Positions 3,731-22,388 of a DNA stretch of 23,958 nucleotides are shown one piece after another. How positions within the stretch are numbered: the first letter of the stretch is position 1; each line of letters starts with the position of its first letter. The notes below the pieces were generated by a model. It worked only from the letters and a program-made list of their open reading frames with translations. It did no database searches and had not been told where the DNA came from. The stretch covers positions 1-23,958 of IMG/VR virus record IMGVR_UViG_3300017593_000448. One strand, 5' to 3'. A program made the translations under genes and the position numbers. This DNA comes from a virus.

Positions 3731-4462
3731 ATGAAAGTATATTATTGTCAACATTGTGGTAAGTGGAGAGGAAACAATAAAATATGTCCAGAGTGCGGGG
3801 ATACTTGTATAGCAAGAGACTTGGGAAAATCAAGAGGAGATAAGTATTTTATAGATGGAGTTGATATCCCGTTAGCAAGAGTTACCAAGATATTGGGTGC
3901 GTCTAACAAGGAAGCCTTAAACTACTGGGTGACCAAACAAGCGGTTGTGGCAGCATTAGAAAACCCCTTATTGAGCGTGAGCGAGGCAATGGCAGCAAGA
4001 TATTTAAAAAGAGATGCTGCTGCCTCAAGAGGAACAAATGTCCACCACATTATAGAGAGTTTGGGAGACAAAAACCCGACCGAAGAACAGCTTAAGATAC
4101 CACAAATACAAGCGTTTGTCAAGTTTAAGAAAGATATACCATACAAGTTGTTAGAAAGCGAGAAAACGGTTTATTCCTTGAAATATAAATACGCAGGCAC
4201 ATTAGACGGCGTGATAGAAGTAGGAGATAGAAAAATGATAATAGATTGGAAGACATCAAAATCCGTCCATGATAGCTACGCCCTACAAATAACTGCCTAT
4301 AAGCACGCTTTAGCAGAATTAGAAAAAGATAAAAGCATTCTTAAATATGGTATGGCAATAGTTCACCTAAGAGATAACGGCAACTATTCCTTCATAGAAA
4401 TGGAAGACAAGTGGGATGTTTTCTTAGCCCACCTGACAATTTACAACTGGATGAACAATTAA
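3731..4462 (+). CDS. PD-(D/E)XK nuclease with N-terminal zinc ribbon (RecB/Cas4-like)
   Basis: 243 residues. An N-terminal zinc ribbon (C6-x2-C9, C19-x2-C22) precedes a RecB-type exonuclease domain: G-T-x-x-H-H around 101-106, G-T-L-D159-G, I-D172-W-K174-T-S and Q186-I-T-A-Y. These are motifs II, III and the QxxxY-like motif of the PD-(D/E)XK superfamily, so the active-site residues are all present. In phages such enzymes act in recombination, replication or end resection, often beside a ssDNA-binding protein; the OB-fold-like protein at 4751 may be its partner. Its last codon and stop are copied at 4713-4718 as part of a 21-bp direct repeat flanking the next gene. Confidence 0.85.
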   Translation: MKVYYCQHCGKWRGNNKICPECGDTCIARDLGKSRGDKYFIDGVDIPLARVTKILGASNKEALNYWVTKQAVVAALENPLLSVSEAMAARYLKRDAAASRGTNVHHIIESLGDKNPTEEQLKIPQIQAFVKFKKDIPYKLLESEKTVYSLKYKYAGTLDGVIEVGDRKMIIDWKTSKSVHDSYALQITAYKHALAELEKDKSILKYGMAIVHLRDNGNYSFIEMEDKWDVFLAHLTIYNWMNN

Positions 4463-4477
4463 GGGTCGTATTATAAA
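4457..4477 (+). repeat. Direct repeat, left copy, flanking the 4493 gene
   Basis: 21 bp starting with the last codon and stop (AAT TAA) of the nuclease gene and running through GGGTCGTATTATAAA. The right copy is 4713-4733, with one mismatch (20/21). Confidence 0.85.
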
Positions 4478-4492
4478 TTAACCAACAAAATT

Positions 4493-4714
4493 ATGTTTAA
4501 TAAAACAGACAAAGAGATAATGATAGAGACAATAGAGTTTGTGGGTGGGGCGTTATTGATTATCTTTATGTTTATCTCGGTTCCCCTTTATTATTCTTCT
4601 TGTAGGAGTGCTAAGATATATAATGATAAATATGGAACAGAATATACTTGTGGAGATTTTTTATGGGCAAAAGACCAAATAAATAGTCAAACGCAAACAA
4701 TCAATTTAGAATAA
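4493..4714 (+). CDS. Small phage membrane protein
   Basis: 73 residues with one membrane segment at about 16-34 (FVGGALLIIFMFISVPLYY), then S-C-R-S-A-K-I-Y-N-D-K-Y-G-T-E-Y-T-C-G-D-F-L-W-A. The A-x-x-Y/F-N-x-x-x-G-T-x-Y-T-C-x-D-F-x-W-A signature is shared by small proteins of many unrelated phages; the role is unknown. The two Cys residues face the same side of the membrane. The gene lies between the 21-bp direct repeats 4457-4477 and 4713-4733. Confidence 0.75.
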   Translation: MFNKTDKEIMIETIEFVGGALLIIFMFISVPLYYSSCRSAKIYNDKYGTEYTCGDFLWAKDQINSQTQTINLE

Positions 4715-4733
4715 TTAAAGGTCGTATTATAAA
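4713..4733 (+). repeat. Direct repeat, right copy
   Basis: Matches 4457-4477 at 20 of 21 bases. It begins inside the stop codon of the 4493 gene and contains AAAGGTCGTATTATAAA, so the two genes at 4493 and 4751 have nearly the same leader. Confidence 0.85.
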
Positions 4734-4750
4734 CCAATATACAAAAAATT

Positions 4751-5092
4751 ATGAATAATACTAGCAATTGGATAAAAATCGTCCCAGAATTAACAGACTT
4801 ATGGGACTTCGATAAGAATAATGTATTAGAAGGTGTTTTTATTGAGAAAAAAACTGACGTTGGTCCGAATAATTCCAATATATATGTGATTAAAACAGAC
4901 GAAGGCAAGTTTTCTGTCTGGGGGAACACTGTTTTAGACAGCAGATTAGACGGATTTGTCAAAGGAGAAGAGATTAAAATAGAATACAAAGGAATGACGC
5001 CTAGTCAAAGAACTGGAAAGGAATACAAAGATTATGATATTTACCACAGACCGCTGGAAAAGGTAGATGATGTTATAGATATAGACGAATAA
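4751..5092 (+). CDS. Small OB-fold-like protein, possible ssDNA-binding partner
   Basis: 113 residues. A β-rich core (LEGVFIEKKTDVG, NIYVIKTDEGKFSVWG, VKGEEIKIEYKGM, KDYDIYHR) looks like an OB fold of the type found in small phage single-strand-binding-like proteins, with T-x-L-D-S-R-L in the middle. It follows a RecB-like nuclease by one gene, fitting a recombination/replication pair. The acidic tail (VDDVIDIDE) is typical of SSB-like proteins that recruit partners. No direct evidence for DNA binding. Confidence 0.5.
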   Translation: MNNTSNWIKIVPELTDLWDFDKNNVLEGVFIEKKTDVGPNNSNIYVIKTDEGKFSVWGNTVLDSRLDGFVKGEEIKIEYKGMTPSQRTGKEYKDYDIYHRPLEKVDDVIDIDE

Positions 5093-5099
5093 TTTATGC

Positions 5100-5125
5100 G
5101 GGCGTGGGACGAAAATCCTACGCCC
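5100..5125 (+). other. Strong 10-bp hairpin with CGAAAA loop
   Basis: GGGCGTGGGA (5100-5109) pairs along its full length with TCCTACGCCC (5116-5125), with one G-U pair, around loop CGAAAA. No T-run follows. It lies between the stop at 5092 and the ATG at 5132. Confidence 0.8.
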
Positions 5126-5131
5126 ATAATA

Positions 5132-5458
5132 ATGGTTAAAACACCTATCAGCCAAGTAATAAACTACTATTTTAAATTAAAAGGTTGGGATTACAAAGAA
5201 AAAGAATTCTATATTAAAAGAAAGATAATTTACGCAAGATTTACCCGCCCAGCCAAAGATTTGCTAAAAATGTGCGACCAAAATGTTGAATTAGCTAAAA
5301 TCAAATTAGATAAAATAAGCAAATGGGCAAACGAAAAAGGACTGGAATGGGGAATAGAAACTGCTATTAAAAGGTGGTTTGATAAAGAAGAAAAAGATGA
5401 AGCCATAGATGCTTTCGAAAAGAAGGTTCAAATAAACAAACAAAGATATGGATTCTAA
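5132..5458 (+). CDS. Hypothetical protein (conserved-looking phage type)
   Basis: 108 residues from ATG 5132. An in-frame ATG at 5096 would add 12 residues, but those codons form the arm of a strong hairpin (5100-5125), so the later start is preferred; either is possible. The sequence is helical and basic: V-I-N-Y-Y-F-K-L-K-G-W, I-I-Y-A-R-F-T-R-P-A-K-D-L-L, W-A-x-E-K-G-L-E-W-G-I-E-T-A. The pattern is familiar from phage accessory regions but no function is known to me. The last six codons are repeated after the next gene (see 5438-5456 / 6131-6149). Confidence 0.7.
   Translation: MVKTPISQVINYYFKLKGWDYKEKEFYIKRKIIYARFTRPAKDLLKMCDQNVELAKIKLDKISKWANEKGLEWGIETAIKRWFDKEEKDEAIDAFEKKVQINKQRYGF
5438..5456 (+). 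repeat. Gene-tail direct repeat, left copy (adenine/N4-type MTase cassette)
   Basis: 19 bp at the end of the 5132 gene covering codons for Q-R-Y-G-F and the first base of its TAA. The copy at 6131-6149 differs at one base and lies just after the methyltransferase gene. Confidence 0.85.
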
Positions 5459-5469
5459 TATATAATTTT

Positions 5470-6132
5470 ATGACCAAGCAAAAAACAAACTGGGAAGAGT
5501 CTCGAGAGGGACGAACCAAACATTATAAATCTGTTTTTGAAAATGAACAGGAGTTATTAAAAGCAATTATTAATATTCATTTGGGCGGAAAGAAAATTGA
5601 ATTAGACCCAATGTATTTTAAGGGAAATTTTTATAAAGATGGAATAGAAAGACCAGATTATTATTATGATATAAATTGGGAAATATGTGGGTTGGCGGAA
5701 GATGGTGAAATAGACAAACCAACAGAGGGGGATGCTACCAATTTGTCTTGGTTCAAGGATGGAAAGTTTAATAATATGATTTTAGACCCACCATTTATGT
5801 TTGGTGGACACGGAAAGCAAGATAAGTATTATAGTTCAATTACCCATGGATTTATGAGCTGGGAAGAATTAGAAAAACTTTATAAGGCAATTTTGAAAGA
5901 GGCATATCGATTACTTAAAAAGAAAGGAATTTTAATCTTTAAGTGCCAAGACTATACAGATAGCAAGACAACGATGACTCATAGCTTAGTTTATAACTGG
6001 GCGACAGAATTAGGATTTTACGCAAAAGATATGGCAATACTTGTTAAGCCGAATAAAATTTATAATCCTAACACCACGCAAAGACATTTAAGAAAAATAC
6101 ACACTTATTTTTGGGTGTTTGAGAAAAAATAA
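5470..6132 (+). CDS. DNA methyltransferase, DPPF type (N6-adenine or N4-cytosine)
   Basis: 220 residues. The catalytic motif IV is L-D106-P-P-F109. A second conserved segment, I-E-L-D46-P-M-Y-F-K-G-N-F-Y, is typical of small phage and prophage SAM-dependent methyltransferases of this class; E-A-Y-R-L-L-K-K-K-G-I-L-I-F-K (145-158) is the helix and strand after motif IV. The C-terminal R-H-L-R-K-I-H-T-Y-F-W-V-F is also characteristic. It would modify DNA bases, probably phage DNA against host restriction. No restriction enzyme partner is adjacent. The gene lies in a 693-bp segment between duplicated tails of the upstream gene, suggesting an acquired cassette. Confidence 0.8.
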   Translation: MTKQKTNWEESREGRTKHYKSVFENEQELLKAIINIHLGGKKIELDPMYFKGNFYKDGIERPDYYYDINWEICGLAEDGEIDKPTEGDATNLSWFKDGKFNNMILDPPFMFGGHGKQDKYYSSITHGFMSWEELEKLYKAILKEAYRLLKKKGILIFKCQDYTDSKTTMTHSLVYNWATELGFYAKDMAILVKPNKIYNPNTTQRHLRKIHTYFWVFEKK

Positions 6133-6149
6133 ACAAAGATATGGATTTT
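6131..6149 (+). repeat. Gene-tail direct repeat, right copy
   Basis: Matches 5438-5456 at 18/19 bases. Read in the frame of the upstream gene it gives CAA AGA TAT GGA TTT TGA (QRYGF-stop), where the left copy has TTC TAA: same peptide, different codon and stop. Confidence 0.85.
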
Positions 6150-6299
6150 GATAACTAACAAAACCACTGAACGATAACTAACGCAATTTCCCCGTCCAAG
6201 ACAAACCCTTTATTATAAAGAAGAATTCAAAAACTAATGTTAAGTAAGAAGACAGCAGAAAAAAAGTAAGACATAATCTATACAAAAACCATTAAAACT

Positions 6300-6476
6300 A
6301 TGAAAGAAAAAACAATTAAACAATTAGAAGAAGAAGTCAAAAAATTAGAATTAGAAAAAAGAAAGTTAGAATTAAAAAAAGAAATTGAGAGGTTGAAAAA
6401 CCCAGTTTATGCCACTTTTAGCTGGACCTCTGGTTCCGATAACACTACTCCCCCTTTTACTGTTAGTTCTAAATAA
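6300..6476 (+). CDS. 58-residue coiled-coil protein
   Basis: Leader 'attaaaactATG', no SD. Residues 1-35 are a highly charged Lys/Glu/Leu helix with heptad-like spacing (QLEEEVKKLELEKRKLELKK), followed by NPVYATF and a Ser/Thr/Pro tail (SWTSGSDNTTPPF). Looks like a real protein of two parts, an oligomerising helix and a short C-terminal strand. About 150 bases without a gene lie before it. Function unknown. Confidence 0.6.
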   Translation: MKEKTIKQLEEEVKKLELEKRKLELKKEIERLKNPVYATFSWTSGSDNTTPPFTVSSK

Positions 6477-6481
6477 AACCT

Positions 6482-6655
6482 ATGGATAAAAACAAAGAAC
6501 AAGAAGAATTAAAAAATAGATGGATTAAGCTTCTACGACAAAAAGCTTACTACGAACATCAAGCAAGAGGGAACGGAGAAACTGTTACAAGTCCCGATAT
6601 CGATGATATCTGTAACGAGATAGAGGCATTTTTTGTAGGAATTCTTAGTCGATAA
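6482..6655 (+). CDS. 57-residue hypothetical protein
   Basis: ATG five bases after the previous stop, with leader 'aaaacct' identical to that of the gene at 7185. Product is helical and charged (MDKNKEQEELKNRWIKLLRQ, then DIDDICNEIEAFFVGIL). No domain recognised; size and packing fit a phage early protein. Confidence 0.6.
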   Translation: MDKNKEQEELKNRWIKLLRQKAYYEHQARGNGETVTSPDIDDICNEIEAFFVGILSR

Positions 6656-6663
6656 AACTATAT

Positions 6664-7179
6664 ATGAATATTAAATTAGCAAAACAACTTAAGGACGCAG
6701 GATTTCCTTATGATGATAAATACGGGAACAAAAGGACTAATTGTTGGTATGATTTAGATAATCCGAATAATTCAGTAGAATTTCCTACTCTTTCCGAGCT
6801 TATATTTGCGTGTGGGGAAGGAACATTCCACATAACTAACAATGAATATGTTAAAAATAGTTGGTATGCCCAATTGTCAAGAGGTGAAAAAGTTTGGCAA
6901 ACAGGCGTAGACTCTTATACCCCAGAAGAAGCAGTAGCTAAATTATGGTTAAAATTAGCTAATAGAACCATGAAAGAAGAAAAGAAAATTGAATATACAA
7001 TAGAAGAAATTGAAAGTATTGCCGATGCATGGAGTTGGAAAAATCCTCAGAATAGAAGAGACTATCCCATAATTATTGATTTTTTATGTGAGATAGACCC
7101 AAGGATACAAGAAGGGTATAAATTTGACCCTTACGCAAAATTAAGCATTCCTTCCTTTAAGAAAATTAAGAAAGAATAA
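6664..7179 (+). CDS. Hypothetical phage protein
   Basis: 171 residues. The first 105 residues have a pattern often seen in phage accessory proteins: L-K-D-A-G-F-P near the start, then P-T-L-S-E-L-I-F-A-C-G, W-Y-A-Q-L-S-R-G, and T-P-E-E-A-V-A-K-L-W-L-K-L ending the unit. The remaining 65 residues (T-I-E-E-I-E-S-I-A-D-A-W-S-W) look like a second helical segment. No enzymatic motif. It may be a fusion of two small phage modules. Leader is 'actatatATG' without SD. Confidence 0.7.
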   Translation: MNIKLAKQLKDAGFPYDDKYGNKRTNCWYDLDNPNNSVEFPTLSELIFACGEGTFHITNNEYVKNSWYAQLSRGEKVWQTGVDSYTPEEAVAKLWLKLANRTMKEEKKIEYTIEEIESIADAWSWKNPQNRRDYPIIIDFLCEIDPRIQEGYKFDPYAKLSIPSFKKIKKE

Positions 7180-7184
7180 AACCT

Positions 7185-7649
7185 ATGAACAATGACACAG
7201 AACCGCCACTTATAACAATTTTAGTTTGGATAGTCGTTCTGATTATGATTGCGTTGGAATTCTTTATAGTGTTCCACCCGAGAAAAACCGAACCTTACGA
7301 GGAAATTCCAGATAGCTATGTCTATTCACCCAACATTAGTTATTACCCGCAGATAAAGTATAGAATTTTAGCCAGCGTATCGGGATATTCTAAAAAAGAA
7401 ACCTGTCCTTACGGAGAATGCATAACAGCAAGCGGACAAATTGCGAGCAAACATTTAATAGCCTGTCCCTACTGGATACCGCTTGGAAGTAGAGTAGAGA
7501 TAGAAGGAGTAGGAAACTTTACTTGTGGAGATAGGACTGCGAAGTATATCCAAGAACGGTTTGGTCCGACATTTGATATTTGGTTTTATGAATACGAAGA
7601 CGCTATTAAGTTTGGTCGACAACAAAAATTAGTAATAGTTAAAATATGA
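7185..7649 (+). CDS. Membrane-anchored 3D-domain protein
   Basis: 154 residues. One membrane segment at about 9-30 (LITILVWIVVLIMIALEFFIVF) places the rest outside the cytoplasm. Residues 63-150 form a 3D (double-ψ β-barrel) domain: A-S-V-S-G-Y, T-A-S-G-Q-I-A, I-P-L-G-S-R-V-E-I-E-G-V-G, C-G-D116-R-T, F-D131-I-W-F, and A-I-K-F-G-R. The conserved aspartates include D116 and D131. The domain is shared with MltA-type and resuscitation/sporulation-related lytic transglycosylase-like proteins that act on peptidoglycan. The role here may be in lysis or cell-wall remodelling. Its 3' end overlaps the next gene (ATGA) and is duplicated after that gene. Confidence 0.75.
   Translation: MNNDTEPPLITILVWIVVLIMIALEFFIVFHPRKTEPYEEIPDSYVYSPNISYYPQIKYRILASVSGYSKKETCPYGECITASGQIASKHLIACPYWIPLGSRVEIEGVGNFTCGDRTAKYIQERFGPTFDIWFYEYEDAIKFGRQQKLVIVKI
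7627..7647 (+). repeat. Gene-tail direct repeat, left copy (C5-MTase cassette)
   Basis: 21 bp at the 3' end of the 3D-domain gene, identical to 8256-8276. It encodes L-V-I-V-K-I and runs into the stop, while also including the first two bases of the methyltransferase ATG. Confidence 0.9.
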
Positions 7650-8257
7650 TTAAAGTATTAAACCTATATGCTGGAATAGGTGGGAACAGAAAGCTATGGA
7701 AAAATGTTGATGTTGTTGCGGTTGAAAATAATGAGCAGATAGTTAAGATTTATCGGGACTTTTTCCCAGATGACAAAGTAATTATAGCAGATGCACATCA
7801 GTATTTATTAGAACATTACAAGGAGTTTGATTTTATATGGAGTAGTCCGCCCTGCCAGAGTCATTCAAGCTTTAGACAAAACATAGGAGTTAGGTATAGA
7901 GGGGTTAATCCTGTTTATCCAGATATGAAACTTTATCAGGAAATTATATTTTTACAACATAATTTTAATGGTGATTGGGTAATTGAGAATGTAAAGCCAT
8001 ATTATAAACCGCTTATTGACCCAACATTTATTATTCAAAGACATTATTTTTGGAGTAATGTAATTGTTCCAGAAAAAGAGTTTAAAACTGATTTAATTAG
8101 AAAGGCACAAATTCCACAGTTACAGAAAAAGTATGGATTTGATTTGTCTGGGTATAAAATTAAAAACAAAAGGCAGGTTTTAAGAAACTGCGTAGAGCCA
8201 GAGCTCGGACTTTATATTTTTACAGAAGCACACAGAGAACATAAATCTTTGATTTAA
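7646..8257 (+). CDS. Small C5-cytosine DNA methyltransferase-like protein
   Basis: 203 residues, much shorter than typical 5-methylcytosine enzymes (over 300). SAM-binding motif I is N-L-Y-A-G-I-G-G-N (6-14); motif IV has the catalytic Cys in S-P-P-C70-Q; motif VI is E114-N-V. The last conserved part, R-Q-V-L-R-N-C-V-E-P-E-L-G (176-188), corresponds to the motif X region that closes the SAM fold. The target-recognition domain is therefore nearly absent. It should transfer a methyl group to cytosine, or modify by a partner protein. The ATG overlaps the upstream stop, and the gene sits in a 629-bp segment between identical 21-bp repeats. Confidence 0.8.
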   Translation: MIKVLNLYAGIGGNRKLWKNVDVVAVENNEQIVKIYRDFFPDDKVIIADAHQYLLEHYKEFDFIWSSPPCQSHSSFRQNIGVRYRGVNPVYPDMKLYQEIIFLQHNFNGDWVIENVKPYYKPLIDPTFIIQRHYFWSNVIVPEKEFKTDLIRKAQIPQLQKKYGFDLSGYKIKNKRQVLRNCVEPELGLYIFTEAHREHKSLI

Positions 8258-8276
8258 TTAGTAATAGTTAAAATAT
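8256..8276 (+). repeat. Gene-tail direct repeat, right copy
   Basis: Identical to 7627-7647 over 21 bp. In the frame of the 3D-domain gene it reads TTA GTA ATA GTT AAA ATA TAA, i.e. the same C-terminal residues with a clean stop. Confidence 0.9.
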
Positions 8277-8293
8277 AAAGGCTACAAAGAAAG

Positions 8294-8638
8294 ATGACAA
8301 GCAAACAAATATTAAAAAAAGCAATAGAAAAAGCAGTAAAGAATGGGTGGAAGATGGCAAGGAAAAGGGTCGATTATAATACTTTGGGCTGGAAAATAGA
8401 TATTAAGGATAAGGGATATTATGTTATTATTTTCTCTAATGATTTCGCTAAAGCATTTTGGGGAGAGGGAGAATTGTTAAGGGAAGTAGTTTATCCAGAG
8501 GTCAAAATCGTAACAGAAACCGCATCTGCTACCCATGGTTGGTACACCTTGCTATTACCTGAAGTGGCGTGGGAATATCATCTTCAGCGAATGATATTAG
8601 AGGAAAAGCCCTTAAAATATATAGAAAAGTTTTTATAA
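8294..8638 (+). CDS. Hypothetical protein
   Basis: 114 residues, helical N-terminus (ILKKAIEKAVKNGWKM), then a β-rich part (YYVIIFSNDFAKAFWGEGE) and a C-terminal helix with W-E-Y-H-L-Q-R-M-I-L-E-E-K-P-L-K-Y. The K-A-I-x-K-A-x-x-N-G-W...W-x-Y-H-L-Q-x-M pattern is frequent in small phage proteins of unknown role. 'aagaaag' seven bases ahead is a weak start signal. Follows the right repeat of the C5-methyltransferase cassette. Confidence 0.65.
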   Translation: MTSKQILKKAIEKAVKNGWKMARKRVDYNTLGWKIDIKDKGYYVIIFSNDFAKAFWGEGELLREVVYPEVKIVTETASATHGWYTLLLPEVAWEYHLQRMILEEKPLKYIEKFL

Positions 8639-9526: not shown

Positions 9527-9829
9527 ATGGTGAATATAACAAAGAAAAACTTTATAAAATATATAAAAGAAATAGTATCGTTAAAGAGAGATGCTGAAAA
9601 ATTAAACGATGTTCTCAAAAACATTGACCCAGACTTTGGTGGTCTTTATCTGACGAGGCACGAAACATTGTTGGTAGAGATTTTACAAGATGCGATGAAC
9701 GATGAAAACGACTGGATTGGCTATTTTTTATATGAGATGAATTGTAAGTTTTCCAAAAAACCCGTTGGTAAAGAGAATAAAAAGAATTTATACATCAAAA
9801 ACTATAACGATTTATACAAAAACTTATGA
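9527..9829 (+). CDS. Hypothetical phage protein
   Basis: 100 residues. The stretch E-T-L-L-V-E-I-L-Q-D-A-M-N-D-E-N-D-W-I-G-Y-F-L-Y-E is a pattern (L-x-x-L-x-x-A-M-x-D-x-x-x-W-I-x-Y-x-x-Y-E) that I associate with small conserved phage proteins of unknown role. The C-terminal tail holds an imperfect in-frame repeat, N-L-Y-I-K-N and D-L-Y-K-N-L. The TGA overlaps the next ATG. Confidence 0.7.
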   Translation: MVNITKKNFIKYIKEIVSLKRDAEKLNDVLKNIDPDFGGLYLTRHETLLVEILQDAMNDENDWIGYFLYEMNCKFSKKPVGKENKKNLYIKNYNDLYKNL

Positions 9830-10008
9830 GAATAATAATAAAAGTAGATACACCAGACAAGGAAACCGATATGGAATTTACAGACGAGATGTTAGATAAC
9901 GATAACTTCATTGATATGGTTGTCGGTGGAGAAGAATATACTATTTCGAGAGACGATTTAGAAACCATTGTTTGTGCGTTTCACAAAAGAGCCGAGATGT
10001 TAGAATAA
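9826..10008 (+). CDS. Small acidic protein
   Basis: 60 residues, strongly acidic (F-T-D-E-M-L-D-N-D-N-F-I-D-M-V-V), starting with a short β-strand (MRIIIKVDTP). Likely a small α/β protein; no family recognised. Coupled to the preceding gene by ATGA. Confidence 0.6.
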   Translation: MRIIIKVDTPDKETDMEFTDEMLDNDNFIDMVVGGEEYTISRDDLETIVCAFHKRAEMLE

Positions 10009-10020
10009 ATAAACCCGATT

Positions 10021-10422
10021 ATGGAAAAGACAAACACCCAAAAGAAAAAAAAGAGACTTGCCAAAGAGTGCGGTAATTTATGGAAATATGCTTGCCATAA
10101 AAAGTGGGGTGGTGAGTGCATAATCTGTGGACATTCTGACCAGACGACATTTCACCATTATATTCCTAAAAGCAGAAGTCTATCTTTGCGATATGACATA
10201 ATGAATGGTGTCCCGTTGTGTAATATGAAGTGTCATTACAAGATACATCATTCTGGAACTCCCGATGAAGTTAGAGAGATTTGCGATACAATACGAAAAA
10301 AGCGTGGCAAAGAATGGTGCGAATATATCGATAATGCTAAAAAACAAGATAACACAGGACTAAACACAATTGCTTGGTTAGAAGAACAAAAAGCCAAACT
10401 TAATGACTACTTAGAAGAATGA
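10021..10422 (+). CDS. HNH nuclease, NinG/Rap-like
   Basis: 133 residues. A basic N-terminus is followed by a zinc-braced HNH core: C33-x2-C36 (CIICG), H45-H46-Y-I-P-K-S-R, L-C67-x3-C71-H72, and H76-H77. The order CxxC, HH, CxxxCH, HH and the following helix (D-E-V-R-E-I-C-D-T-I-R-K-K) resemble the lambda NinG (Rap) family, structure-selective enzymes that cut branched recombination intermediates, though a generic HNH is also possible. It fits a recombination-related early region with the RecB-like nuclease at 3731. The final TGA overlaps the next ATG. Confidence 0.65.
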   Translation: MEKTNTQKKKKRLAKECGNLWKYACHKKWGGECIICGHSDQTTFHHYIPKSRSLSLRYDIMNGVPLCNMKCHYKIHHSGTPDEVREICDTIRKKRGKEWCEYIDNAKKQDNTGLNTIAWLEEQKAKLNDYLEE

Positions 10423-10679
10423 TAGCCTGCTACCCTGACAAAATAAGAAAACTACCGCAGTTTGATGACTTTTTGGAAGACATCGAAAGCGTTGGTAGAC
10501 TAAGAAAAGAATTGTTCATCAGTTTTTATTCCGCTGAAAGGTTAAGGAATTTTGTTGCTAAAAAGTATGGTATAAGCCGAACACCGATGATTTGTAGCGA
10601 AAAATGCCCTTACTATAAGCTATGTGAAGCTCAAAACAAAAAAACCCGTGATAGAATAAAACAATACTTATCAATTTAA
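10419..10679 (+). CDS. Small Cys-containing hypothetical protein
   Basis: 86 residues. Helical, with a C-terminal cysteine cluster I-C-S-E-K-C-P-Y-Y-K-L-C (C-x3-C-x5-C) suggestive of a metal site with one further ligand (possibly C4). Overlaps the previous gene by ATGA. Last gene of the long plus-strand operon; the next genes run the other way. Function unknown. Confidence 0.65.
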   Translation: MIACYPDKIRKLPQFDDFLEDIESVGRLRKELFISFYSAERLRNFVAKKYGISRTPMICSEKCPYYKLCEAQNKKTRDRIKQYLSI

Positions 10680-10800
10680 AAACCCCGCTCATAAAGTTTA
10701 ATCCCTGCCGTGTTTAATAATATTGACAGATGCTTCGAACGAGGTTTTTTTATTCGGGCTTTTTTCCTCCCATTACGGTTGCCCGTCCAGTTATTTAATT
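10680..10800. terminator. Convergent-transcription zone with probable terminators
   Basis: Plus- and minus-strand operons end here head-on. On the plus strand AACCCCGCTC (10681-10690) can pair imperfectly with GAACGAGGTT (10737-10746), directly before a T-run (10745-10751). Further on, CGGGC/GCCCG (10755-10759/10781-10785) forms a second stem. The stems are weak, so exact termination points are uncertain. Confidence 0.45.
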
Positions 10801-11118
10801 TTAATATAATCTTTCATCTTTAATGAGATGTTCTCCTACGATTTTTCCTTTTAAGCGTTTAATTAGTACCCTTTCTCCACAAATTGGGCAGATGACATAG
10901 TAATCAGAAACCTTTATTTCTTTTGCTATTGCAGTATAAACCTTGTATGGTGCCTTGTCGCAAGAGTATGTCCACTTGGGAGAAAAGAAGCTGGGTTCTT
11001 CGTTTATTGTTTTTGTTTCAATGATTGTCTCTTCGGGATTATAAGAAAATGTATGTGTATTATGTCCCGAGTTAAAATTGTGTGATATTTGCATTGTTTT
11101 ATTGTCTTTTTTGGTCAT
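10801..11118 (-). CDS. Hypothetical protein with C-terminal zinc-binding motif
   Basis: 105 residues. The N-terminal part is polar and Asn/Thr/His-rich (HNFNSGHNTHTFSYN); the C-terminal part has a strand-rich region and one C-P-I-C-G pair, with another Cys at about residue 53 (S-C-D-K). A partial zinc ribbon is possible. Last gene of the minus-strand operon. No function can be given. Confidence 0.6.
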   Translation of the reverse strand: MTKKDNKTMQISHNFNSGHNTHTFSYNPEETIIETKTINEEPSFFSPKWTYSCDKAPYKVYTAIAKEIKVSDYYVICPICGERVLIKRLKGKIVGEHLIKDERLY

Positions 11119-11123
11119 AGTTT

Positions 11124-11348
11124 TTATTTTGCGTGAATAATTAAGTCATCAAGCTTGCTCTTTTGTTCGCTTGTTAGTGCCTGATAGTGTTTTTCGCCGT
11201 CCAATATGCTCCAAGATATCTTGTCCTGAAAGCCTTTTTCTTCATAGTGTGTTATTCTGCTGACAACTATCTCGTTTCCGTTCTTTAACCCGATGGTTAG
11301 CTCGTCTATTTGGGTTTTGCTGATTGTGTTTTGATTTGTTATTTTCAT
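11124..11348 (-). CDS. Small hypothetical protein
   Basis: 74 residues: β-rich first part (L-T-I-G-L-K-N-G-N-E-I-V-V-S-R-I-T-H-Y) and an acidic C-terminal helix (EQKSKLDDLIIHA). Looks like a small β-sandwich or SH3-like module, unidentified. Five bases separate it from the downstream gene. Confidence 0.6.
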   Translation of the reverse strand: MKITNQNTISKTQIDELTIGLKNGNEIVVSRITHYEEKGFQDKISWSILDGEKHYQALTSEQKSKLDDLIIHAK

Positions 11349-11354
11349 AGTTTT

Positions 11355-11534
11355 TTATTTAATTTTACATTGTTCAATCTGCCAATCCTCCCAGTAGAAG
11401 TTTTCAAACTCTTTTTCTTGTGCCTGCCATCGCCTGCATTCTAACTTCTCCTGCCTGGCGAATCCCGCGTCCATAATTTTAATAAAAGCAATAAAGCAAG
11501 CAAGTAAGATAAGCGTTTTATAAAGTAGTTTCAT
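11355..11534 (-). CDS. Small membrane-anchored protein
   Basis: 59 residues from the ATG at 11534, preferred to an upstream TTG at 11558 because of its 'aaaatATG' leader. One N-terminal membrane span (LLYKTLILLACFIAFIKIM) is followed by a charged, Trp/Glu-rich domain (CRRWQAQEKEFENFYWEDW). It sits downstream of a possible pseudoknot. Function unknown; orientation of the tail is probably cytoplasmic or external depending on export. Confidence 0.55.
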   Translation of the reverse strand: MKLLYKTLILLACFIAFIKIMDAGFARQEKLECRRWQAQEKEFENFYWEDWQIEQCKIK

Positions 11535-12383: not shown

Positions 12384-12871
12384 CCCTTTTCAGCGCCCAG
12401 AGGTATAATAACTAAACTAAGAGAGTAAAGACCCTGTGGGAGCGTCTGAGAGCGTCATTTAAAGCCAAGATTGCTTAGAATTGCCTTATTTTAGCGAGAT
12501 TGCGCTTGTCTACCCACTTCGCCGCGCCCAAGGATTTACTTATAAGGAATTAATAACAATAGGATAGTAGAGGATAACATAACATAGAGAGAAGAAACAA
12601 ACAAAGCTTATTAACACTGTTTTCACTATAATCAAGTCATCGTTTACACTATATATCAAGCCACATCTCACCAAATAACCTTAGCAACATATCATCAAGC
12701 AACCATCAGCGGTTAGCCAGTTATCAAGAAGCTATCAGGCAGTTAGGCAAGCAACCATCAGCTATCAGCAAGGAGCAAAGGTGCCCGGGGGAGGGGTAGT
12801 CTAGGCCGACTGGAGAGGTTGGTATATTATATAGTCCCACCACATATACTAAATATTTGACTTTATATCCT
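12384..12871. other. Non-coding region with ATCA-rich repeats
   Basis: 488 bases without a convincing gene. The segment 12632-12780 contains about eight ATCAAG/ATCAGC-type motifs, including an exact 15-bp direct repeat CAAGCAACCATCAGC at 12696-12710 and 12748-12762. It is followed by a G-rich tract (CCCGGGGGAGGGG, 12783-12795). Possible replication origin, packaging or regulatory DNA. Confidence 0.55.
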
Positions 12872-13489
12872 ATGACAGAAGAAAGAAGGTTAAAATGGAA
12901 CAAATATCAATTAAAAAGATATCATCAATCAGAAAGATACATAGTCATATTGATTAGGCGAATGGCACAAGAGAAACACAGAAAGAGGATGTTAGAAATA
13001 AAAAAGGCGGATATCCGTCGGAGAAAAGCAGAAAGACACCAAAAAGCCATTGAGAACAAAAGAAAACGGGAAAAACATTATAGAGAAAGTGGTTTAAAGG
13101 CCATGTGGGACAAAAATCCAAAGAGATTGGCAAAAAAACGAGAATACAACCAAAGGCCAGACATAAAAATAAAAAGACGAGAATATAGAAGGGCATGGAG
13201 AAAAAAACATCCCGAAAAACGAAGAAGCGGAAATGGTGGAATAAAAAAGGAAGCATTTGATAAAATGAGAAAAGAGTATAACTATACTTGTCCAATGTGT
13301 GGGAGAAAAGAACCATTTTTGGACCAGTATTGGCCGTATCTAGTCCAAGACCATATTATTCCTCGTAGTAAGGGAGGCAAAAAAAGAAGCATAGATAACA
13401 TCCAACCACTCTGTTGGGATTGTAATAACAAGAAGGGCGATAAAATTATCAACCCAATAATCAACCCAAAAACACTACAAAACGCATGA
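12872..13489 (+). CDS. HNH endonuclease with long basic N-terminal region
   Basis: 205 residues from ATG 12872; a TTG at 12857 is less likely. Residues 1-125 are extremely Lys/Arg-rich with predicted long helices (repeats such as R-R-K-A-E-R-H-Q-K-A and K-K-R-E-Y), perhaps a DNA-contacting arm. The C-terminal HNH domain reads C-P-M-C-G, V-Q-D-H-I-I-P-R-S-K-G-G, N-I-Q-P-L-C-W-D-C-N-N-K-K, with both zinc Cys pairs and the catalytic His present. An HNH gene beside the terminase is common in HK97-type phages, where it can help cut concatemers at packaging. A homing nuclease is the alternative. Confidence 0.8.
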   Translation: MTEERRLKWNKYQLKRYHQSERYIVILIRRMAQEKHRKRMLEIKKADIRRRKAERHQKAIENKRKREKHYRESGLKAMWDKNPKRLAKKREYNQRPDIKIKRREYRRAWRKKHPEKRRSGNGGIKKEAFDKMRKEYNYTCPMCGRKEPFLDQYWPYLVQDHIIPRSKGGKKRSIDNIQPLCWDCNNKKGDKIINPIINPKTLQNA

Positions 13490-20596: not shown

Positions 20597-21261
20597 TGGT
20601 TATCTATCCAAAAGTAAGCATACTTTTGACCTCGTATAACAACGAAATGGTTCGGGATGCGATTAAGGGTGTTTTAGCACAGACTTATAAGAATTGGGAG
20701 TTAATTATTCTTGATGATAATTCAAACCAGAAAATACTTGATATTTACAAAGAATTTGACGATGAATTCAGCCACCAGAGAATAAAATTTTATAACTCGC
20801 ACATTAGAGAAAAAGACAGATTGAAAGTGTGTCCATACGCCAGACAGATAAATGTTGGACTAAAAATGGCAACAGGAAAGATAGTAATGTATTTAACAGA
20901 CGACACTGTTTACAAGCCCAATAAGCTTAAAGAGGTCGTAAGATATTTTAGGTGGCATCCAAGAGTGAGGGTTGTATATAACAGACAAGAACAGCGTAAG
21001 GGCAAATTATCAAAAGTGTTATCGCCCGATAGGGTGCTTAAAAGAGCATTTTGTAGAGTTGACCATAGTTCTGTAAGCCATTATATGAGTTGCGTCAAAG
21101 AGGTTGGCGATTGGGACACAAAGAGTTTTGGCATGGCAGACGCATATTATTGGAACAAACTTAATTCAAAATATTTATTCTATCCAATAAAAAAGATATT
21201 AGAGACAAACTATATCCACAAGAATAGTTTCTCTCACTTAGTAGTTAAAAAAAACCTATGA
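20596..21261 (+). CDS. Glycosyltransferase family 2 (GT-A fold)
   Basis: 221 residues from ATG 20596; an upstream in-frame ATG at 20512 lies inside the previous gene and is less likely. Opens P-K-V-S-I-L-L-T-S-Y-N-N, then A-I-K-G-V-L-A-Q-T-Y-K-N-W-E-L-I-I-L-D40-D41. The metal-binding DXD-like motif is T-D-D (101-103). These are GT2 hallmarks. It transfers a sugar from a nucleotide donor, by inversion. The length is short, missing C-terminal elements of processive enzymes. Its TGA overlaps the next ATG. Confidence 0.85.
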   Translation: MVIYPKVSILLTSYNNEMVRDAIKGVLAQTYKNWELIILDDNSNQKILDIYKEFDDEFSHQRIKFYNSHIREKDRLKVCPYARQINVGLKMATGKIVMYLTDDTVYKPNKLKEVVRYFRWHPRVRVVYNRQEQRKGKLSKVLSPDRVLKRAFCRVDHSSVSHYMSCVKEVGDWDTKSFGMADAYYWNKLNSKYLFYPIKKILETNYIHKNSFSHLVVKKNL

Positions 21262-22388
21262 ATAAAATCCAATACGGGGGTGTTGTCTTCGAAAAAGAGG
21301 AAAAGACAGCGATACAAAGAGTTTTAGATAGAAATTGGTGGTTATTAGCAGAAGAGGGAGAGGCGTTTGAAAAAGAACTTGCTGAATACTTAGGAGTAAA
21401 ACACGCAATATTTGTTAATTCTGGAAGCTCCGCCCTTTTGTTGACATTTTTAGCATTAGCAAGAGAAAGGAATTATAGAAATGAAATAATAGTTCCAGCA
21501 ACCTGTTTCCCGACAGATATTAGTGCAATGGTTTATGCTGGATTTAAGCCAGTATTAGTAGATGTTGAGTTAGATACATTTTTAATAGACCCAATAGAAG
21601 CAGAAAAAGCAATAACAGATAAAACATTTGGTATATTGGCAGTCCATGTAGCAGGTAACATCTGTAACATGGGAGCATTAAATAAGATTGCCTTTGACCA
21701 TGGGATAAGAATAATAGAAGATAATTGTGATGGATTAGGTGGAAATTGGAATAGTTTTAAGATAGGTTCTGAAAACATATCGGTAGCATCGTTCCACGCT
21801 GCCCATATTATATCAACTGGACAAGGTGGAGCAATATTTACAAATAACGATAAAGAAGCAAATAAGATAAAAGAATTGCGTGATTGGGGCAGGAAGATTG
21901 ATTTTAATGACGACGAAGAAAGCCAACCACCCTTACCCAAGGACTATATGCAGAGATATAACTACACAGAGCTTGGATTTAATTTAGGACCGCTGGAATT
22001 ACAGGCGGCAATGGGAAGAGAACAACTCAAGAAAATAGAGGACTTCAAAAAAGCACGCAAACACAATTTTGAATACCTTAAGAAGGGGTTGACAAGGGCA
22101 GGTTATTCTGTTGTCAATAATTACGAAGAAGCAGACCCTTGTTGGTTTACTTGCCCGTTCTTAGTGCCAAAAGAAGTAAAGCGTGAAACCGTATTTAAGA
22201 AGTTAAAAGAAGCAAACATAGAGTTTAGAAATGTTTTAGCTTCTAATATAAAACTACACCCAGCGTTTAGATGGTTATTCGGACTATATCCAAACGCCGA
22301 CCAAATAGCAAGAAGGGGATTGTGGATACCAGTTCACCCATTGGTAACACAAGAAAACTTAGAATACATGATTAACATACTAAAATGA
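21258..22388 (+). CDS. DegT-fold sugar enzyme with His in place of PLP lysine (3-dehydrase-like)
   Basis: 376 residues. PLP-enzyme fold of the DegT/DnrJ/EryC1 family: S-G-S-S-A-L (55-60), E-D-N-C-D-G-L-G-G (154-162), A-S-F-H-A-A-H-I-I-S-T-G-Q-G-G. At the position that carries the Schiff-base lysine in aminotransferases stands H183. This replacement is known in the C-3 dehydrases E1 (DdhC/AscC, RfbH) and ColD, which remove the 3-hydroxyl of NDP-4-keto-6-deoxyhexoses. L-R-D-W-G-R following it is also E1-like, but the cysteines for the iron-sulfur cluster of E1 are absent. It likely takes the product of the RmlB-like dehydratase downstream. The TGA overlaps the next ATG. Exact substrate and product unknown. 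Confidence 0.8.
   Translation: MNKIQYGGVVFEKEEKTAIQRVLDRNWWLLAEEGEAFEKELAEYLGVKHAIFVNSGSSALLLTFLALARERNYRNEIIVPATCFPTDISAMVYAGFKPVLVDVELDTFLIDPIEAEKAITDKTFGILAVHVAGNICNMGALNKIAFDHGIRIIEDNCDGLGGNWNSFKIGSENISVASFHAAHIISTGQGGAIFTNNDKEANKIKELRDWGRKIDFNDDEESQPPLPKDYMQRYNYTELGFNLGPLELQAAMGREQLKKIEDFKKARKHNFEYLKKGLTRAGYSVVNNYEEADPCWFTCPFLVPKEVKRETVFKKLKEANIEFRNVLASNIKLHPAFRWLFGLYPNADQIARRGLWIPVHPLVTQENLEYMINILK

Follow-up and report, generated by a model that had tools for sequence, protein, structure and literature searches.

How a single gene comes to enter between two intact phage neighbours is usually argued by comparing relatives, and to our knowledge most mosaic joints show no visible boundary sequence. 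The locus described here raises the question of how a putative C5-cytosine methyltransferase gene came to lie between two identical copies of the end of the gene in front of it. The window, by which the whole stretch of DNA that was analysed is meant, is an entire IMG/VR virus record of 23,958 bp, which possibly represents a genome fragment; a terminase is encoded in it.

A repeated gene end on both sides of a putative methyltransferase gene

The gene upstream of the methyltransferase, here called X (7185-7649, plus strand), encodes a membrane-anchored 3D-domain-like protein of 154 amino acids (phrog_22529), for which no Pfam match was obtained at an E-value of 0.05. The 3' end of X is the duplicated sequence: AATTAGTAATAGTTAAAATAT is found at 7627-7647 and at 8256-8276, both on the plus strand, as exact 21-bp copies that are 629 bp apart and whose identity ends immediately on either side. 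An earlier sequence-only reading of this DNA had named both positions exactly. No other exact repeat of the window is as long as this pair, and the longest repeat in 300 simulated sequences of matched composition (Markov orders 1 to 3, 100 sequences each) was 18 bp; an exact repeat of 21 bp is far beyond chance and counts in favour of the recombination origin preferred below.

In the frame of X, the left copy encodes L-V-I-V-K-I, followed by a TGA that overlaps the methyltransferase ATG at 7646, within which the copy ends. X could be aligned with a homologue in another viral locus (L137) through to the C-terminus (...LVIVKI against ...RVKVLDF), and the left copy is therefore the native C-terminus of X. 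The right copy encodes the same residues in the same frame and is followed by TAA. It sits behind the methyltransferase stop codon (TAA, 8255-8257), the final two bases of which it shares, and has no gene body in front of it. Thus, the frame relations described by the first reading are correct, but its view that the insertion restores the 3' end of the upstream gene has to be abandoned, since a tail without a body restores no gene. The next gene downstream, Y (8294-8638, plus strand), belongs to a small phage protein family, whose members (in the window and in L081-L087 and L127-L163) have ends that hardly vary, MTNEQILKKAIEKAVKNGW ... YHLQQMVLEE-PLKYIEKFL, whereas the middle is variable.

The insert (7646-8257, plus strand) contains a single, complete gene for a protein of 203 amino acids (PF00145, phrog_363), and the absence of a recombinase from it had been recognized correctly before. 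The protein scores 41.8 bits against a Pfam cut-off of 22 and possesses the PPC catalytic and ENV motifs; SSPPC and ENV are invariant across nine relatives, its C-terminus is normal, and the nearest solved chains are of the Dnmt2 type. By family score and motifs, the product is a putative C5-cytosine methyltransferase. Searches for RNA families and tRNAs found none, and neither terminal inverted repeats at the edges of the insert nor a terminator-like site were found.

Relatives of the methyltransferase were present in 80 viral loci, which have almost no other gene in common with the window. In phages of Vibrio breoganii, a homologue (approximately 52% identical) is present or absent at one slot, which also accepts other methyltransferases. 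The occurrence in otherwise unrelated phages and the polymorphic slot mark the family as mobile cargo, and the gene in the window looks like an acquired, mobile gene. At the slot, however, the overlap at entry of the homologue is merely 4-8 bp, which counts against the preferred explanation and implies that this family can insert without a long tail copy. Long flanking repeats were also absent around family members encoded by a V. breoganii phage and by a Flavobacterium phage; the repeat is therefore not inherent to the methyltransferase gene. The slot itself (L089, L115-L122) is located behind a helicase gene and a small gene. It is either vacant or occupied by C5-methyltransferase genes, a short one or full-length ones, or by a different methyltransferase-like gene. 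The right edge invariably coincides with the stop codon of the insert, ahead of a GCCC...GGGC hairpin-like sequence.

Two further flanked reading frames in the window

Two more reading frames of the window, both on the plus strand, are flanked in a comparable way. The gene at 5096-5458, of which L131 contains a relative, ends with KQRYGF-stop, and this tail is duplicated: the 17-bp sequence AAACAAAGATATGGATT occurs exactly at 5438-5454 and at 6131-6147, where it overlaps the stop codon of the insert, an N6/N4 DNA methyltransferase gene (5470-6132; PF01555, phrog_24333). In the third case, both the end and the leader are duplicated. The upstream gene (3731-4462) encodes a PD-(D/E)XK exonuclease (phrog_298, PF12705), and the insert (4493-4714) is an ORF of 73 codons with a hydrophobic stretch, for which no family match was found. 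The left copy (4453-4490; 38 nt) is 82% identical to the right copy (4709-4746), with 14 nt exact, and the right copy extends to the leader of the gene starting at 4751. In L131, the gene immediately behind a relative of the nuclease gene occupies the place of the 4751 gene, with no ORF like that at 4493 between them; homology of this L131 gene to the 4751 gene could not be demonstrated.

When all junction pairs were scored, the three flanked cases ranked as the top three, and all of them are formed by neighbouring junctions, a pattern which arises in about 0.09% of shuffles of the junction order (permutation p about 0.0009). The GC content of the three inserts is 0.30-0.32, compared with 0.33-0.39 for the preceding genes, a weak hint only.

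The three repeat pairs (21, 17 and about 38 bp) are unrelated in sequence to each other, which bears on the proposal that the methyltransferase was inserted in a manner similar to integration into tRNA ends. That proposal stands in so far as the gene looks acquired and the end of X is found on both sides of it; the analogy with site-specific integration does not, given that there is no recombinase, no terminal inverted repeat and no likeness among the three pairs. Direct repeats around a discrete insert that keeps the upstream gene end would also be left by transposon-like target-site duplication or by integration between attachment-site repeats. However, the insert encodes neither transposase nor integrase, its edges lack terminal inverted repeats, and the lengths and sequences of the repeats reveal no fixed target-duplication length. 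Since the pairs are unlike each other, there is no common attachment site or core. Such an origin is disfavoured and highly improbable. Candidate element classes were rejected on the same features: a site-specific integrative element for want of a recombinase gene and a shared attachment core, a transposon for want of terminal inverted repeats, a transposase and a fixed-length target duplication, and a free-standing homing endonuclease gene because the insert encodes no nuclease.

Other short repeats also occur in the window. A similar A-rich start context, AAACCTATG, precedes three genes (6472-6500, 7175-7203 and 21248-21276) and resembles a start-associated sequence, and the 18-bp sequence GGAGAATAATCGTATCAA is tandemly repeated at 398-436 with a spacing of 21 bp.

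Junction similarity in other viral loci

Gene junctions were compared in 82 non-redundant viral loci, nearly all of which had been fetched via the methyltransferase, and in a second set of 30 loci fetched via gene Y, using a simple ORF caller and a single score threshold (at least 18), which was fixed after the window had been seen. In the first set, 2.4% of neighbouring junctions reached this score, compared with 1.1% at distance two, 0.34% at distance three, 0.25% at distance four and 0.17% at distance five or more. This corresponds to 25 neighbour pairs, where order shuffles predicted 6.3 and gave a maximum of 13; the second set contained 10 pairs where 3.0 were expected, a number reached in none of 2000 shuffles. 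Neighbouring junctions are thus alike three to four times above order shuffles in both sets, with the caveat that a few repeats come from similar neighbours, for example in L051 and L073. A methyltransferase motif was present in 9 of the 25 flanked genes, compared with 68 of 1058 genes overall (Fisher p about 1e-5), although some of the nine lie in one cluster and are hence not independent.

Many of the neighbour-junction repeats are of the leader type, containing a ribosome binding site and a start codon, rather than of the tail type. It is therefore to be considered whether a signal for translation or transcription of the next gene lies in the end of X, so that an insertion must leave a copy in front of both genes and selection keeps them similar. 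The repeat of the third case, which continues through the leader to the next ATG, fits such a function, as do the leader-type repeats of other phages. Start-associated sequences are also known from cluster K mycobacteriophages, in which one motif is repeated before many genes (PMC3203893). The window shares with these genomes the presence of short repeats at gene boundaries within one phage genome; however, each window pair is specific to one insert, and the lack of a motif common to the three pairs is unlike a general signal. Moreover, in the C5-methyltransferase case the left copy ends at the start codon, whereas 17 bp separate the right copy from the next one, and the spacing between repeat and start is thus not kept. 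We regard selection for functional leaders as quite unlikely at this locus.

Clear tail-type cases were found in L074 (72 bp, 96%), in L026 (57 bp) and at an HNH gene in L085. In the latter (5505-6813), a NUMOD3/HNH endonuclease gene (6094-6813) ends with a copy of the end of the preceding gene, which is 101 bp long, about 70% identical and in the same reading frame; judged by this arrangement, it is probably the same scar in a homing-type nuclease gene. A second clear tail-duplicating insert, in L119 (98-715), is likewise an HNH gene, and the window encodes HNH proteins itself (10021-10422 and 12857-13489). For these reasons, an HNH nuclease might act in trans: encoded elsewhere in the phage or by a co-infecting one, it would cut the end of X, and faulty repair from a donor would duplicate the tail, with the methyltransferase as a passenger. 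None of the three inserts of the window contains or adjoins a nuclease gene, however, and several cases elsewhere are also free of nucleases, so that help from a homing endonuclease seems unlikely. Scars of this kind seem to occur fairly often in other phages.

Two side observations were made in these loci. L074 contains a cassette-like array (9686-11366) around a methyltransferase gene and an MmcB-like gene, both of which end in QGVLGI, and within this array a 37-bp exact leader and the 72-bp tail are each repeated. Many of the methyltransferase C-termini in L026, L038, L046, L051, L074 and L131 are Q-x-x-L-like (e.g., QTELF, QETLEF, QKLLI, QGVLGI and QQILL), a candidate resemblance to a sliding-clamp binding motif.

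Empty sites in this phage and in others

Scans of IMG/VR with the terminase as query, and with X and Y each both as a single sequence and in an alignment (for X, with a homologue), found no close relative of the window phage. Blastn against cultured phages returned matches to methyltransferases only, and a search of genome contigs with Y gave merely two distant matches. For the flanked genes in L038 and L074, no usable empty-site relative was found, since the upstream sequence of L094 has diverged too far and L113 does not differ from L074.

Single-copy relatives are known for two other phages. Gene 68 of the mycobacteriophage Island3 and the preceding gene 67 end in the same 3' sequence, of which Brujita has a single copy (Pope et al. 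2011, PMC3029335). This case could be reproduced: the copies in Island3 align over 58 bp with about 91% identity, and Brujita contains one copy. As in the window, one ORF was added after a gene and the upstream 3' end is copied directly behind it; the Island3 copy, however, is in frame with the end of the inserted ORF, whereas the 21-bp copy of the window is 100% identical and lies outside the ORF, behind its stop codon. In the V. breoganii phage 1.133.O, an HNH gene is flanked by a 16-bp copy of the upstream tail, and this gene is absent from the site in four relatives. A base-by-base comparison with two of these relatives showed that their single copy matches the right copy of 1.133.O exactly, whereas the left copy has mismatches to it at two of the 16 positions; this fits two copies derived from two parents. 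Among the indels of the V. breoganii phages, about 20 distinct ones (grouped by hand) were compared; around twelve of them are bordered by repeats of 10 bp or more, compared with 1 of 200 simulated insertions, and several of these repeats are terminators or leaders, not tails.

Origin of the duplicated tail

In our judgement, the methyltransferase gene was probably gained by out-of-register recombination between phage genomes at a gene boundary. Two genomes would have joined slightly out of register, one parent contributing X including its tail and the methyltransferase gene, and the other everything from within its own X tail onward. The recombinant would possess X, the new gene and Y, all intact, as well as a short, useless second tail of X. 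In the corresponding empty version, X would be joined to Y through one tail copy, behind which TAAAGGCTAC would come next. Positions of the edges at stop and start codons would reflect selection for viable genomes and not a dedicated enzyme. Because no close relative was found, we infer both the direction at this locus (gain and not pending loss) and the route; a two-copy repeat, once formed, would also permit clean deletion of the gene by homologous recombination.

Both the length and the sequence of the right copies vary from case to case, as is expected of sloppy joins. In the window, the copies cannot be assigned to different parents because both are identical. Two further observations count against out-of-register joining: the left copy of Island3, not the right one, is nearer to the empty site of Brujita, and in two of the three window cases the edge of the insert is about two bases from the stop codon, which is tidier than random joins need.

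Phage annealing and exonuclease systems are able to use short homologies, and the phrog_298 exonuclease at 3731-4462 might provide such an activity for another route. The geometry, with two direct copies around one gene, would allow the copies to recombine, yielding a circle with one tail, which could re-enter other genomes at the tail by homologous recombination, thereby moving the gene within the phage population. However, neither a circle nor an empty molecule was observed, repeats of 21 and 17 bp offer little length for an efficient single crossover, and the copies of the third case have diverged. A circular cassette is therefore clearly improbable, and out-of-register recombination is retained as the preferred origin.

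Short conserved boundary sequences have been proposed as guides of phage mosaicism (cited in PMC3029335). As that model is cited there, recombination at short similar gene-end sequences would build such joins; in contrast to it, the similar sequences found here flank one gene within one genome, and the unrelatedness of the three window pairs means that a common boundary sequence was not found. The insert is also reminiscent of morons, as a single ORF is added between two neighbouring genes. Morons, however, usually come with a promoter and a terminator of their own (PMC3029335), whereas the mark of the window insert is its duplicated tail.

Implications for phage genome evolution

The kind of scar described here is already known from the open-access literature, to which the search was confined, and the breadth of its occurrence is the less expected part. 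It might be that duplicated tails are a recurrent and widespread mark of the acquisition of single genes by phages, with a bias towards DNA methyltransferase and HNH nuclease genes, and that one particular repair or recombination pathway produces them; recent gains could then be read from a single genome without relatives. This broader view is tentative and rather doubtful. Judged by the survey, the scar may be frequent enough for practical use once tail-type and leader-type repeats have been separated. A scar within a genome that marks recent single-gene gains would allow such gains to be counted without relatives, and it would make the distinction between illegitimate and boundary-guided recombination testable.
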